Origin: Candidatus Mnemosynella biddleae | GTDB taxonomy: Archaea > Halobacteriota > Archaeoglobi > Mnemosynellales > Mnemosynellaceae | Direction: 5' to 3' | NCBI GenBank assembly: GCA_002011165.2 | Contig: MTMI02000003.1 | Coordinates: 1 to 64,000, forward strand | Length of the DNA stretch: 64,000 nucleotides | Part shown: positions 49,340 to 56,779 of the stretch, piece after piece | Position numbering within the stretch: the first letter of the stretch is position 1 | How the letters are laid out: each line of letters opens with the position of its first letter | Translations under genes and position numbers: made by a program | The notes under the pieces: model-generated | Seen by the model: the letters and a program-made list of their open reading frames with translations, nothing else | The model's database searches: none | Told to the model about the DNA's origin: nothing

Positions 49340-49501
49340 ATGAGTAAATGTGAAATCTGTGAAGAGAATATTGCGATTCATAGATGTGTGATATGTGGTC
49401 TGAAGACCTGTTCTGAACATGGAAAACTCTTGAAGGATAAAATGTATTTCGATAGAGTCTGGGTATGCGAAAAATGTTTGGAGAAGGTCAAAAGAAGATG
49501 A
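49340..49501 (+). CDS. Small zinc-finger protein (53 aa), not in supplied ORF track
   Basis: MSKCEICEENIAIHRCVICGLKTCSEHGKLLKDKMYFDRVWVCEKCLEKVKRR; stop overlaps downstream ATG (ATGA). Confidence 0.75.
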   Translation: MSKCEICEENIAIHRCVICGLKTCSEHGKLLKDKMYFDRVWVCEKCLEKVKRR

Positions 49502-50406
49502 AAGTCAATGAATCTTTTGCAGGAATAGATCATGGTACAACTGGAATACGATTCGCAACAACCGATGGGAGAAGGTTTGAATTCTCCAGAGAAGAGCTCA
49601 GAGAGATGAGTATTTTAGAGATTAGAGGTAAAATAGAAGAGATGTTCTCAGACGTGAAGCTTTTTGCACTTTCATACTCAATGGGAGATGGAATTAAGGG
49701 TTTTGAGAACATAAAATATGTGAAAAACAGAGGTCTTAAGGAGACTGGAGGGGCAGGAGAGTTTAAAGGAGGTGGTACGAAACTTTTTGAGGCCATGAAG
49801 AGTTTTCCCTGTGTATTGATTCCGGGTATTCACAGAGAGAATTTCCTCGATCCGAGGTTCAAAGTTTTTTCCCATGGTGCTTCACCAGAAAAAATCGGTT
49901 TAGCTTTTTACGCCTTGAAACACGGAAAGAATCTCCTGATTTCGGACTGTAGTAGCAATACTGTTACTCTTGCGGTAATTGATGAGAAGCTCATTGGAGC
50001 CATCGACGCCTGTATCTTCTCCCCCGGATGGACTCAGGGGCCTATAGATCTCGAAGCAATCAGGAGAATAGATAGAGGAGAAATTACAGCTGAAAGAGCT
50101 TTTTCAACAGGAGGTGTCACCAAAATATTCTCAAAAGATGAAGCTATTGGAGTGCTTGCGTTCTTCTGTGCGATGGAAATAGAGGCTCTCAAAGTTCTTA
50201 TGAGAGATTATCGAATTGAGGAGTACAGCATCTGCATCGGAGGAGGTCTTTCAGAGAATAAAGAGTTTGTAGATCTGGTTACTTCACTTCTCGGAACAGA
50301 AGTTATTCCCTTAGGAAAGTGGGCTTCTGCAGAGGGTTGTGCTGAAATAGCAGAGAAGATATATCTGGGTGCAAAGGAAATACTTGGATTTCCAGTGAAT
50401 TTTTGA
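49498..50406 (+). CDS. Actin/HSP70-fold kinase-like protein, methanogenesis marker 12-like
   Basis: FAGIDHGTTGIRFATTDG; LISDCSSNTVTLAVIDEK; FSPGWTQGPIDLEAIRRID; start reassigned to ATG 49498. Confidence 0.68.
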   Translation: MKVNESFAGIDHGTTGIRFATTDGRRFEFSREELREMSILEIRGKIEEMFSDVKLFALSYSMGDGIKGFENIKYVKNRGLKETGGAGEFKGGGTKLFEAMKSFPCVLIPGIHRENFLDPRFKVFSHGASPEKIGLAFYALKHGKNLLISDCSSNTVTLAVIDEKLIGAIDACIFSPGWTQGPIDLEAIRRIDRGEITAERAFSTGGVTKIFSKDEAIGVLAFFCAMEIEALKVLMRDYRIEEYSICIGGGLSENKEFVDLVTSLLGTEVIPLGKWASAEGCAEIAEKIYLGAKEILGFPVNF

Positions 50407-51859: not shown

Positions 51860-53272
51860 ATGAGAGAAGAGATTCTAAGAGAGCTTGAAAAAATCGTTGG
51901 TGAAGATGATGTCTCAACAGATCCAGTTGAAATATATGTTCACTCTAGAGATTCTGCCCTTTTTCAGGGATTTGCTGATGTCATAGTGAGACCTGAGAGT
52001 ACTGAAGAAGTTTCTCAGATTCTCAAGCTTGCTAATGATTATAAAATTCCTGTTTATCCGAGAGGATCTGGAACGAGTATCTGCGGTGGCCCAATTCCAG
52101 TTCTTGGCGGAATAGTTCTTGCAATGTACAAGATGAACAGAATAATAGAGTTCGATAGAGAGAATCTCATGGTTACGGTTGAACCTGGAGTCATATGCGA
52201 TGATCTGAATGAGTTTCTTGCTCCTTATGGATATTTCTTCCCACCTGATCCGGGTTCAAGCAATGCTGCGACGATTGGAGGAATGGTTGGGCACAACGCA
52301 GGTGGAATGCTCGCTCTGAAATATGGAACGACGAAAGACTGGATACAGTGGCTTGAGGTTGTTCTTCCTGGAGGAAAAGTGATAAGAACAGGGAGTAACA
52401 CCCTGAAGAGTGTTTCGGATTATGATCTCACAAAACTCTTCTGTGCTTCTGAGGGAACTCTTGGAGTTGTCACGAAGATTGGAATGAGAGTTGCACCGAA
52501 ACCGAAGTATTACAGGACAGTTCTGTTCTACTTCGATGATCTGAGAAAGGCTGGGAATGCTATAGTTAATGTCAGATCTTCTGGAGTTGTGCCCGCTGCA
52601 CTTGAGATAATAGACAGGATTTCTATGAAGACTGCAGGAGAATATACAGGAATGGATCTTCCAGAAGCAGAGGCTATGCTGATAGTTCAAACTGATGGAC
52701 TTGTTGAAGAACAGGTTCAGAGAGAAATTGAGATTTGTTTTGAAGCAGCTAAAAAGGCCGAACCAATTGAGTGGATGATGGCTGAGACTGAGGAGGAGAG
52801 GAATAAGGCATGGGCAATTAGAAAAGCCTGTTTTCCAGCACTTGCGAGAAAAGCCATTACCACAATTATTGAAGACATGTGCGTCCCAATAACAAAGATT
52901 CCGGATGCTCTTGTCGAAATTCAGAAGATTCCAGAAAGAGTGAACAATCTTGTGAGTATTGGAACTTATGGTCATGCTGGAGATGGGAATCTTCATCCAA
53001 CATTTCTCTTCGATGAGAGAGATCCTGAAGAGAGGGAAGCGTTCTTTAAGGCGACAAAGATTCTTTATGATGAAGTCGTTCTTCCTCGAGGTGGTTCGAT
53101 AACGGGAGAGCATGGGATAGGAATTGCAAGAAGCAAATACATTCCGAAACAGCTCGGAAAGGAGACAATAGAGCTCATGAAGGGCATCAAGAAGGTCTTT
53201 GATCCAAACAACATAATGAATCCCATGAAAGGCAAGCCCTATGGGGATGAGGCGATAATTCCAGAAATATAA
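51860..53272 (+). CDS. FAD-linked D-lactate/glycolate dehydrogenase, copy 1
   Basis: VIVRPESTEEVSQILKLANDYKIPVYPRGSGTSICGG; GHAGDGNLHPTFL; TGEHGIGIARSKY. Confidence 0.93.
   Translation: MREEILRELEKIVGEDDVSTDPVEIYVHSRDSALFQGFADVIVRPESTEEVSQILKLANDYKIPVYPRGSGTSICGGPIPVLGGIVLAMYKMNRIIEFDRENLMVTVEPGVICDDLNEFLAPYGYFFPPDPGSSNAATIGGMVGHNAGGMLALKYGTTKDWIQWLEVVLPGGKVIRTGSNTLKSVSDYDLTKLFCASEGTLGVVTKIGMRVAPKPKYYRTVLFYFDDLRKAGNAIVNVRSSGVVPAALEIIDRISMKTAGEYTGMDLPEAEAMLIVQTDGLVEEQVQREIEICFEAAKKAEPIEWMMAETEEERNKAWAIRKACFPALARKAITTIIEDMCVPITKIPDALVEIQKIPERVNNLVSIGTYGHAGDGNLHPTFLFDERDPEEREAFFKATKILYDEVVLPRGGSITGEHGIGIARSKYIPKQLGKETIELMKGIKKVFDPNNIMNPMKGKPYGDEAIIPEI
51968..52816 (+). repeat. 849-bp direct repeat copy 1 inside lactate dehydrogenase gene
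   Basis: No difference seen from 53516-54364 by eye (constant offset 1548). Confidence 0.9.
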
Positions 53273-53398
53273 CTATTTATCATAAATATTCTTTGAGAAT
53301 TGGCGTGAGAACGCTTTCAAATTCGATATTCGGACTAAAAATAAGAAAGATATTTAAACTCGATAACGGGTAAGTTAACTTGGAGAAAAAAAGAAGGG

Positions 53399-54811
53399 AT
53401 GATTTCTATGGACGAGAAAATAATTGAGGAACTTAAGAATATAGTCGGAGAGGAGGATGTCAGTACTGATCCGCTTGAAATCTACGTCCATTCTAGAGAT
53501 TCTGCACCCTTCCAAGGATTTGCTGATGTCATAGTGAGACCTGAGAGTACTGAAGAAGTTTCTCAGATTCTCAAGCTTGCTAATGATTATAAAATTCCTG
53601 TTTATCCGAGAGGATCTGGAACGAGTATCTGCGGTGGCCCAATTCCAGTTCTTGGCGGAATAGTTCTTGCAATGTACAAGATGAACAGAATAATAGAGTT
53701 CGATAGAGAGAATCTCATGGTTACGGTTGAACCTGGAGTCATATGCGATGATCTGAATGAGTTTCTTGCTCCTTATGGATATTTCTTCCCACCTGATCCG
53801 GGTTCAAGCAATGCTGCGACGATTGGAGGAATGGTTGGGCACAACGCAGGTGGAATGCTCGCTCTGAAATATGGAACGACGAAAGACTGGATACAGTGGC
53901 TTGAGGTTGTTCTTCCTGGAGGAAAAGTGATAAGAACAGGGAGTAACACCCTGAAGAGTGTTTCGGATTATGATCTCACAAAACTCTTCTGTGCTTCTGA
54001 GGGAACTCTTGGAGTTGTCACGAAGATTGGAATGAGAGTTGCACCGAAACCGAAGTATTACAGGACAGTTCTGTTCTACTTCGATGATCTGAGAAAGGCT
54101 GGGAATGCTATAGTTAATGTCAGATCTTCTGGAGTTGTGCCCGCTGCACTTGAGATAATAGACAGGATTTCTATGAAGACTGCAGGAGAATATACAGGAA
54201 TGGATCTTCCAGAAGCAGAGGCTATGCTGATAGTTCAAACTGATGGACTTGTTGAAGAACAGGTTCAGAGAGAAATTGAGATTTGTTTTGAAGCAGCTAA
54301 AAAGGCCGAACCAATTGAGTGGATGATGGCTGAGACTGAGGAGGAGAGGAATAAGGCATGGGCAGCAAGAAAGGCTGCTTATCCCGCTCTCGTGAGGACT
54401 TCACCCGCAACAACATGCATGGAGGATATGTCGGTTCCAGTTCCCAAGATCCCTGATGCCCTCGTAAAGCTTCAGAAGATTCCAGAAAGAGTGAACAATC
54501 TTGTGAGTATTGGAATTTTCGGGCACGCTGGAGATGGGAATCTTCATCCAACATTCCAGTATGATGAGAGGGAGCCTGAGCAGAGGGAAGCGTTCTTTAA
54601 GGCGCTTGATATAATGTATAGAGAGATTGCACTTCCAATGGGTGGAACTGTCACTGGAGAGCATGGAATAGGACTCATAAGAGCGAAGTATCTCATAGAT
54701 GAGTATGGAGCCGAAGTTGTCGAGCTCATGAAGGGCATCAAGAAGGTCTTTGATCCAAACAACATAATGAATCCCGATAAAGGAAAGCCATGGGGGGTTA
54801 TCGAAGTTTAA
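53399..54811 (+). CDS. FAD-linked D-lactate/glycolate dehydrogenase, copy 2
   Basis: Paralogue of 51860-53272; identical central region, divergent N- and C-termini. Confidence 0.93.
   Translation: MISMDEKIIEELKNIVGEEDVSTDPLEIYVHSRDSAPFQGFADVIVRPESTEEVSQILKLANDYKIPVYPRGSGTSICGGPIPVLGGIVLAMYKMNRIIEFDRENLMVTVEPGVICDDLNEFLAPYGYFFPPDPGSSNAATIGGMVGHNAGGMLALKYGTTKDWIQWLEVVLPGGKVIRTGSNTLKSVSDYDLTKLFCASEGTLGVVTKIGMRVAPKPKYYRTVLFYFDDLRKAGNAIVNVRSSGVVPAALEIIDRISMKTAGEYTGMDLPEAEAMLIVQTDGLVEEQVQREIEICFEAAKKAEPIEWMMAETEEERNKAWAARKAAYPALVRTSPATTCMEDMSVPVPKIPDALVKLQKIPERVNNLVSIGIFGHAGDGNLHPTFQYDEREPEQREAFFKALDIMYREIALPMGGTVTGEHGIGLIRAKYLIDEYGAEVVELMKGIKKVFDPNNIMNPDKGKPWGVIEV
53516..54364 (+). repeat. 849-bp direct repeat copy 2
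   Basis: See copy 1. Confidence 0.9.
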
Positions 54812-54824
54812 GGGGTGAAATACT

Positions 54825-55271
54825 ATGAGTGAAGTTAAAGAATTTAAAGGATTATCAAAAGAAGAAATAAAGAAATTTGAATTTCTCAGCGATAAATATG
54901 CAGATGATACATTCAAGTGCATTCGATGTAGCTACTGTCAGGCTAAATGCCCAAGCTGGGAGGAATTTGGTTGGGTATCTCATTCAGCCAGAGGAAGAAT
55001 CCAAACTGCGAGAGGGATCGTAGAAGGGAAGTTAAGACCTTCGGAATACATGCTAAGAGCTGTCTTCACCTGCAACATGTGTGATTACTGTCTTCTCAAG
55101 TGTCCTGCTGGACTTCCAACAACTGATATCATCAGAGCTTTGAAGCACGATTTAGCAAAACAGGGGTATTACGTTGGGGTGCACAAAAAGCTCGTTGAGA
55201 GAATTCAGAAATATGGAAATCCCTACGGGGAGGATCCAGCTAAAAGAGCTGACTGGATGAAGGAGGAATAA
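54825..55271 (+). CDS. 4Fe-4S protein (HdrC/GlpC-like electron transfer subunit)
   Basis: CIRCSYCQAKCPSW and CNMCDYCLLKCPAGLPTTDIIRALK. Confidence 0.9.
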   Translation: MSEVKEFKGLSKEEIKKFEFLSDKYADDTFKCIRCSYCQAKCPSWEEFGWVSHSARGRIQTARGIVEGKLRPSEYMLRAVFTCNMCDYCLLKCPAGLPTTDIIRALKHDLAKQGYYVGVHKKLVERIQKYGNPYGEDPAKRADWMKEE

Positions 55272-55273
55272 AA

Positions 55274-56002
55274 ATGGCTGACACAATTTATTTCCCCGGT
55301 TGTACTGCTGCTTACCGACAGCAGGATACTGCAAGAGCAAGTGTGAAGATTTTGAAAGCAGGTGGAGTAGAGTTTGACATTCTCGGAGAAAAGGAGCTCT
55401 GTTGTGGTTCGGTTCTCTTCAACTCTGGATTCTTCGAAGAAGGGATGGAAGTTGCGAAGAAGAACTTGGAGATGTTCAAAGAACTGGGAATAAAGAAAAT
55501 CATCACTGCCTGTGCGGGATGCACCAAGACGTTTAAAGAGACCTACGAACAGATCTTTGGGGAGCTTCCGTATGAGGTTAAGAACATTACAGAAGTTGTT
55601 GATGAACTGATAAGTGAAGGAAAACTGAAGTTCAAGGAAGAAGGAGAGAAGGTGAGGGTCACTTATCACGATCCATGCCATCTGGGAAGATCCCTCGGAA
55701 CCTACGATCCCCCAAGGAGAGTTCTGAGAGCAATTCCTGGAATAGAGTTCGTTGAAATGAAGAGGAACAGAGATAGTTCTCGATGTTGTGGAGCAGGAGG
55801 GGGAGTTAGATCGGCATATCCGGAGACTGCGATATCTCTTGCAAAGAGGAGAATAGGAGATGCGGAAGAGATAAAAGCAGAACTCATTGTAACTCCATGC
55901 CCGTTCTGTGTGCTAAATCTCAGTGACGGTGCAAAGGAGAAGAGCTCAAATATTAAGGTGAAGGATATAACAGTATTCATAGCGGAGAGATTGGAGGTTT
56001 AA
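55274..56002 (+). CDS. CCG-domain Fe-S protein (HdrB/LldE-like)
   Basis: YFPGCTAAYR; ITACAGCTKTFKETY; CHLGRSLGTYDPPR; SRCCGAGGGVRSAYPE. Confidence 0.9.
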   Translation: MADTIYFPGCTAAYRQQDTARASVKILKAGGVEFDILGEKELCCGSVLFNSGFFEEGMEVAKKNLEMFKELGIKKIITACAGCTKTFKETYEQIFGELPYEVKNITEVVDELISEGKLKFKEEGEKVRVTYHDPCHLGRSLGTYDPPRRVLRAIPGIEFVEMKRNRDSSRCCGAGGGVRSAYPETAISLAKRRIGDAEEIKAELIVTPCPFCVLNLSDGAKEKSSNIKVKDITVFIAERLEV

Positions 56003-56005
56003 AGA

Positions 56006-56779
56006 ATGGAGTGGAAAACCGAGATTTCGAAGGTAGAACCAAATAAAATCCTCATAAGAGGTTACAACCTTGGAGATTTGATTGGAAAACTTTCATTCGG
56101 AGGCGTTGCGTATCTTCTTCTTACGGGCGAGTATCCAACAGAGGCTCAACAGAAGATTATGGATGCGATGCTAGTTGCAGGATGCGATCACTCGCTAGCT
56201 GCACCTTCAACTCAAGCTGCAAGACTCGTTGCTTCGAGCGGAGTTCCGCTTCAGGCTGCAGTCGCAGCAGGAATAACATCTCTCGGAGATTATCACGGAG
56301 GAGCAATTGATAAATGTGCGAAAGTTCTTCAGGAAGGTGTTAAAAGAGCCAAAGAAGAAGGTAAGAGTTTTGATGAGATGGCAGAGATCATTGTGAAGGA
56401 GCACAGAGCGAGAAAGGAGAGGATTCAAGGATTTGGACATCCATATCATACGAAGGATCCAAGAGTAATCGCAATGATGAATTTAGCCAAGGAGTTAGGA
56501 ATTTACGGTGATCACTGCGAATTTGCAAAAGCGATCGAGAGGGCTCTGGAGAAGGAGTTTGGAAGACATCTTCCGTTGAATGTTGATGGAGGAATTGCCG
56601 CTCTAATGTCAGAACTCGGACTTGACTGGAGGCTCGGAAAGGGATTCTATGTGATGGCAAGATCTGCTGGTTTGGTCGCTCATGTATATGAAGAGATCAC
56701 AAAAGAGAGACCATTCAGAGTTCTTCCACTCGATCAGATAATCTACAATGGCCCTCCAGAGAGACCTGTGCCAAAATAA
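56006..56779 (+). CDS. Citryl-CoA lyase / citrate synthase-like protein
   Basis: MEWKTEISKVEPNKILIRGYNLGDLIGKLSFG; GDYHGGAIDKC; GFGHPYHTKDPR. Confidence 0.87.
   Translation: MEWKTEISKVEPNKILIRGYNLGDLIGKLSFGGVAYLLLTGEYPTEAQQKIMDAMLVAGCDHSLAAPSTQAARLVASSGVPLQAAVAAGITSLGDYHGGAIDKCAKVLQEGVKRAKEEGKSFDEMAEIIVKEHRARKERIQGFGHPYHTKDPRVIAMMNLAKELGIYGDHCEFAKAIERALEKEFGRHLPLNVDGGIAALMSELGLDWRLGKGFYVMARSAGLVAHVYEEITKERPFRVLPLDQIIYNGPPERPVPK

Follow-up and report, generated by a model that had tools for sequence, protein, structure and literature searches.

The window (the whole 64-kb stretch of DNA analysed here) carries two tandem dehydrogenase genes, called copy A and copy B below, and in the spacer between them a short promoter-like element:

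51860..53272, plus strand: copy A, an open reading frame of 470 aa for an FAD-dependent D-2-hydroxyacid dehydrogenase family protein (PF01565, 6e-47; PF02913, 5e-63; below the GlcD equivalog cut-off)
53399..54811, plus strand: copy B, the tandem paralogue of 470 aa, from the open reading frame, domain profiles and alignment
53345..53358, plus strand: the element GAAAGATATTTAAA, archaeal BRE/TATA-like, in the A-B spacer and also in the spacer of the sister species

The sister species is Ca. Mnemosynella bozhongmuii MAG-16, the one close relative returned by a scan of genome contigs, which belongs to the same genus as the window, Ca. Mnemosynella, within the Archaeoglobi. Copy B has an in-frame alternative start at 53408 that lines up with the start of copy A. 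The FAD-binding domain PF01565 and the C-terminal domain PF02913 were detected in both copies with E-values of 1e-46 or better, and on these profiles both copies are assigned to the FAD-dependent D-2-hydroxyacid dehydrogenase (VAO/PCMH; GlcD/LDHD) family. Their scores against the GlcD (glycolate oxidase) equivalog TIGR00387 were 427 and 419 bits, below the cut-off of 567.9, and the nearest solved sequences were those of glycolate oxidase (9qgz), LctD (7qh2) and LDHD. The alignment showed that the metal ligands His398, His405 and Glu442 of mouse LDHD (mLDHD), the base His443 and Arg347 are all kept in both copies and in the sister, while four pocket positions read Ile/Phe/Ile/Thr in A and Ile/Tyr/Met/Thr in B versus Val/Trp/Ser/Ile in LDHD. 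An earlier note on this DNA had called the pair lactate dehydrogenases; membership of the GlcD/LDHD family (PF01565, PF02913) stands, but "lactate" was a guess, and the pocket positions differ from those of LDHD. Both genes would encode active flavin-dependent D-2-hydroxyacid dehydrogenases. The element GAAAGATATTTAAA is conserved between both species, in a spacer of which the rest is 61% identical, and is a possible archaeal promoter of copy B; its presence upstream of copy B in both species suggests that separate expression of the two genes may occur.

Comparison of the two copies with each other showed one long and several short identical runs, of which the main ones are:

51968..52816, plus strand: homogenised tract of copy A, codons 37-319, identical at 849/849 positions to 53516-54364
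53516..54364, plus strand: homogenised tract of copy B, codons 40-322, identical at 849/849 positions to 51968-52816
52920..52964, plus strand: short identical island in the 3' part (partner 54471-54515), with paralogous site patterns around it
53171..53224, plus strand: short identical island in the 3' part (partner 54722-54775)

An exact scan at offset 1548 returned 51968-52816 (849 nt) as the sole identical run of at least 18 nt, which makes the base-for-base identity over 849 bp described in the earlier note exact. At offset 1551 the identical runs were 52920-52964 (45 nt), 52976-53004 (29 nt), 53031-53053 (23 nt) and 53171-53224 (54 nt); the first and last of these had been recognised as islands and are real, but the middle two had been overlooked, and they suggest small separate conversion patches. 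The N- and C-terminal regions, said earlier to stay distinct, are indeed so, with an identity between copies A and B of 67% in the 5' part and 72% in the 3' part. No other repeated 60-mer and no other converted gene pair were found within the 64-kb window, and when the genome that contains it (1.50 Mb, 11 contigs) was searched at the DNA level, these two were the only close copies, beside three remote paralogues.

The order methanogenesis marker 12, transporter, rubrerythrin, copy A, copy B, Fe-S protein, CCG protein and citryl-CoA lyase was common to both species, and we compared copies A and B of the window species (wA and wB) with those of the sister (sA and sB). The four-gene codon alignment contained 0 orthologous (wA=sA, wB=sB) versus 109 paralogous (wA=wB, sA=sB) sites in the tract, 97 of the 109 at third codon positions, whereas outside the tract there were 59 orthologous versus 23 paralogous sites, 21 of the latter in the 3' part (tract versus outside, Fisher p 1e-30). 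The longest concordant run covered 184 of 404 polymorphic sites, against a permutation maximum of 26 (20,000 permutations; four genes, two species). In the 3' part, paralogous silent sites also lay close to the identical runs 52976-53004 and 53031-53053.

Trees of the 5' part, the tract and the 3' part were rooted on an outgroup, paralogue C, and compared by AU tests. The orthologous tree alone was retained for the 5' part (paralogous tree, p 0.035) and for the 3' part (paralogous tree, p 0.0002), while the paralogous tree alone was retained for the tract (delta logL 178). The comparison with an orthologous pair in a sister species that the earlier note had proposed thus gave orthologous flanks around a paralogous tract. 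Because both flanks are orthologous, the tandem duplication is older than the species split, and because the tract between them is paralogous, each species homogenised the middle of its genes after that split. Cores that are paralogous within each species would likewise be expected if each species had recently and independently duplicated the gene and then replaced, or rapidly changed, the ends of the copies, but this is contradicted by the flank trees, and the flanks, the A-B spacer length of 126 bp, GAAAGATATTTAAA and the downstream genes are all orthologous, which makes independent duplication very improbable. Matches in other Archaeoglobi families had identities of 28-44%, with no adjacent tandem pair among the matches listed.

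Silent sites also bear on the reading of the tract. We found 0 differences between wA and wB at 193 synonymous sites of the tract, which sets dS below about 0.016 (95%, rule of three), while the tract dS was 0.27 between sA and sB and about 1.2-1.33 between species, and that of neighbouring genes ranged from 1.6 to saturated. Between the species the core protein has changed little (dN 0.034), as would be expected if a constraint on the protein or the RNA held the cores identical with no recombination, but the same comparison gave a dS of 1.24 with 117 synonymous changes; silent sites are therefore free to change, and wA and wB nevertheless share all of them, so that we give such a constraint next to no credence. 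The preference of the earlier note for conversion over protein-level selection agrees with the absence of differences at the 193 synonymous sites when between-species dS is about 1.2.

In the sister, homogenised blocks of 98-100% identity occupy the same segment, with unique differences between the blocks, and the two copies are 91% identical. Gene conversion in the window lineage does appear recent, as the earlier note had held, but it was not a single event, since the sister lineage homogenised the same segment separately. From these alignments, in a concerted-evolution test that rests on two species, we hold it to be almost certain that gene conversion took place, and the pattern points to recurrent, domain-limited conversion in both lineages independently. 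If divergence is clock-like, a dS below about 0.016 compared with 1.24-1.33 would make the last event here no older than roughly 1-2% of the age of the split.

The identity of the two tracts in the window could be partly or wholly artificial if a short-read assembler or a contig merger had collapsed two similar cores and reused one. The Juan de Fuca data for Ca. M. biddleae (JdFR-21 lineage) consist of 2x150 reads with inserts near 215 bp, and the original contigs were merged at 98% identity (PMC5369317). If the window derives from these data, a link that we infer, such reads cannot span an 849-bp repeat, the path through the repeat would have been set by graph logic or merging, and a few differences, such as single-base bubbles, could have been smoothed. 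No 16S rRNA match was found in the window genome, the assembly of which is rated 100% complete; this fits a draft MAG, where such an absence is commonly seen. Against an artefact, the sister assembly independently has homogenised 98-100% blocks in the same segment, a search of the window's own genome returned no separate contig bearing a B-type core, and copies as diverged as those of the sister (91%) would not collapse. We therefore consider an assembly artefact improbable; the concern applies to the exact figure of 100%, which comes from one draft assembly, and does not touch homogenisation as such.

The differences that persist inside the sister tract bear on the direction of transfer. Between sA and sB, 24 of 26 amino-acid differences in the tract are grouped into three islands (residues 74-81, 132-157 and 246-265), a clustering beyond chance (p 5e-5) that holds when restricted to family-variable positions. 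The corresponding segments of copy B in the window are:

53627..53650, plus strand: island 1, with a B-specific ASGATVPR in the sister and the copy A version (Ile77) in the window
53801..53878, plus strand: island 2, the Gly159/Ala160 substrate-channel region, B-specific in the sister and A-type here
54143..54202, plus strand: island 3, with a B-specific GAMEFLDGPTMKTVADY in the sister and A-type here

Island 1 contains the pocket position Val101 of LDHD, which is Ile in A and Ala in sister B. At the 26 positions at which the sister copies differ, the window agrees with sister A at 20 and with sister B at 5, while paralogue C sides with B at 10 of them and with A at 5. Since paralogue C favours the B state, the version seen in sister B is probably the older one and copy B of the window was probably overwritten by A, so that the last conversion in this lineage would have run mainly from A to B. 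The few tract sites that match sister B possibly reflect an earlier reverse transfer or change in sister A. Import of the sister B islands from paralogue C was also considered and was rejected as a recent event, the amino-acid sequences being different.

The homogenised range covers codons 37-319 of copy A in the window versus residues 35-315 in the sister. The core had been described as the FAD-binding part; it does take in the whole FAD-binding domain, which in LDHD ends at 243 (Pro215 of copy A), but residues 37-319 of copy A also reach across roughly the first half of the substrate-binding domain. In mLDHD the carboxylate of the substrate is bound by Arg347, and Trp351 belongs to the pocket (PMC10589216). 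Alignment to mouse LDHD placed both just beyond the 3' end of the tract, in the following stretch:

52820..52834, plus strand: copy A just 3' of the tract, from Arg321 to Phe325

Arg347 corresponds to Arg321 in copy A, which a single codon separates from the tract end, and Trp351 to Phe325 in A and Tyr328 in B; a further pocket residue, Ser365 of LDHD, corresponds to Ile337 in A and Met341 in B. These limits might reflect loss of similarity alone, as a recombination barrier, rather than selection on the pocket, with conversion itself being real. The flanks, at 67-72% identity between copies, are too dissimilar for efficient recombination, and the limits could descend from a common ancestor. 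On the other hand, the 21 paralogous sites in the 3' part indicate that recombination seems to reach that part, and the protein-changing islands of the sister persist within DNA that is otherwise 98-100% identical. A barrier acting alone is to us quite conceivable, but it is not the reading that we favour.

The dehydrogenase genes are followed by candidate electron-transfer partners and by a citryl-CoA lyase-like gene, and a methanogenesis marker gene lies beside the locus:

54825..55271, plus strand: a two-[4Fe-4S] protein of 148 aa (PF13183, 6e-10), resembling the C-terminal part of the fused paralogue C
55274..56002, plus strand: a cysteine-rich (CCG, HdrB-like) protein of 242 aa (PF02754, 2e-44; TfrB-like, 1e-61)
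56006..56779, plus strand: a citryl-CoA lyase-like gene of the same cluster (NF004869, 1e-86, above cut-off)
49465-50406: a methanogenesis marker 12 gene beside the locus (TIGR03281, above cut-off)
L037:4964-6862, minus strand, and G000:C7 (G000 being the window genome), about 152.9-154.9 kb: the paralogue C fusion, of similar length in both species

The FAD dehydrogenases adjoin HdrC-like and HdrB-like genes (54825-56002), as in an HdrD-GlcD module. GlcDEF and GlcD-HdrD modules are an established basis for electron transfer from a flavin to partner proteins, and by analogy electrons likely pass from the flavin to the 148-aa and 242-aa proteins. Paralogue C, a third copy in the window genome, is a dehydrogenase fused to an HdrC-like two-[4Fe-4S] protein, and this fusion favours the separate 148-aa protein as the electron partner. 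A gap between malate and oxaloacetate has been reported for Ca. Mnemosynella (PMC9635834), on which the citryl-CoA lyase-like gene together with a 2-hydroxyacid dehydrogenase might bear. The marker 12 locus sits in an Archaeoglobi genus described as having remnant methanogenesis markers.

In the explanation that we propose, an old tandem duplicate, older than the split of the two Ca. Mnemosynella species, would have undergone homologous recombination between neighbours, in which the middle of one gene was time and again overwritten with that of the other, independently in each species. The presumed partners would be common, both dehydrogenases feeding the same neighbouring iron-sulphur and cysteine-rich subunits, so that the shared flavin-side body may tolerate homogenisation or gain from it. 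The side-chain pocket residues differ, and conversions entering the pocket segments would be purged by selection, in addition to there being too little homology there to start them. Taken as a whole, recurrent conversion of an old tandem pair with a common flavin-side body and a pocket kept distinct appears to us very probable, while for our hypothesis on function (a shared body and selection on the pocket segments) the balance is even. Conversion might further act as a specificity switch: selection in the sister would keep the B islands near the pocket and channel, and the replacement of all three here would have made a chimera with B ends and an A core, a partly A-like pocket and a common electron-transfer body. 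We regard this last proposal as tentative and rather doubtful.

The process itself is known, and the pair adds a clean case to a known phenomenon; no earlier report of this gene pair was found in the literature searched. Two species with two copies each, sharp breakpoints beside a residue of known catalytic role and small protected islands make the locus a natural experiment, in which conversion appears to homogenise the shared body of an archaeal enzyme pair while specificity residues stay apart, with hints as to which residues matter. The few archaeal examples are thereby joined by an enzyme pair whose genus is not known to be methanogenic, and the pair warns that trees made from such genes blend two histories.

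With respect to the enzymes, both copies resemble mouse LDHD and E. coli GlcD (PMC10589216) in family, metal ligands and catalytic residues, but the side-chain pocket residues differ, so that the substrate is not transferable. The neighbourhood resembles the GlcD and HdrD-like modules of Ca. Polytropus marinifundus (Archaeoglobi, PMC6474303), in which an FAD dehydrogenase lies beside an HdrD-like iron-sulphur protein, except that in this locus a single split HdrC-like/HdrB-like partner is common to two dehydrogenase genes and the third copy is a GlcD-FeS fusion. As in the set of Wang and Chen 2018 (PMC6053082), the paralogues are closer within than between species, over a long time, and are archaeal energy-metabolism genes, whereas the seven archaeal genes of that prokaryote-wide survey come without exception from methanogens, and no FAD-dependent hydroxyacid dehydrogenase is among them. 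In RF1/RF2 (Ishikawa et al. 2015, PMC4530459), conversion is likewise confined to a functionally interchangeable domain, spares the specificity domain and has a case-dependent direction, but those genes are bacterial, of another protein family, and were converted independently in two cases, whereas the pair here is a tandem one with repeated conversion. Conversion that recurs within one domain of tandem paralogues is known from mtrA-1/mtrA-2 in Methanococcales and Methanomicrobiales (Wang et al. 2015, PMC4632066), which belong to another protein family, owe their distinct end to domain shuffling and fusion, and cover far more species and time. The two systems nevertheless agree in being archaeal tandem duplicates of a single operon, with one domain recurrently converted across species, the other end distinct, and a shared complex as the proposed reason.
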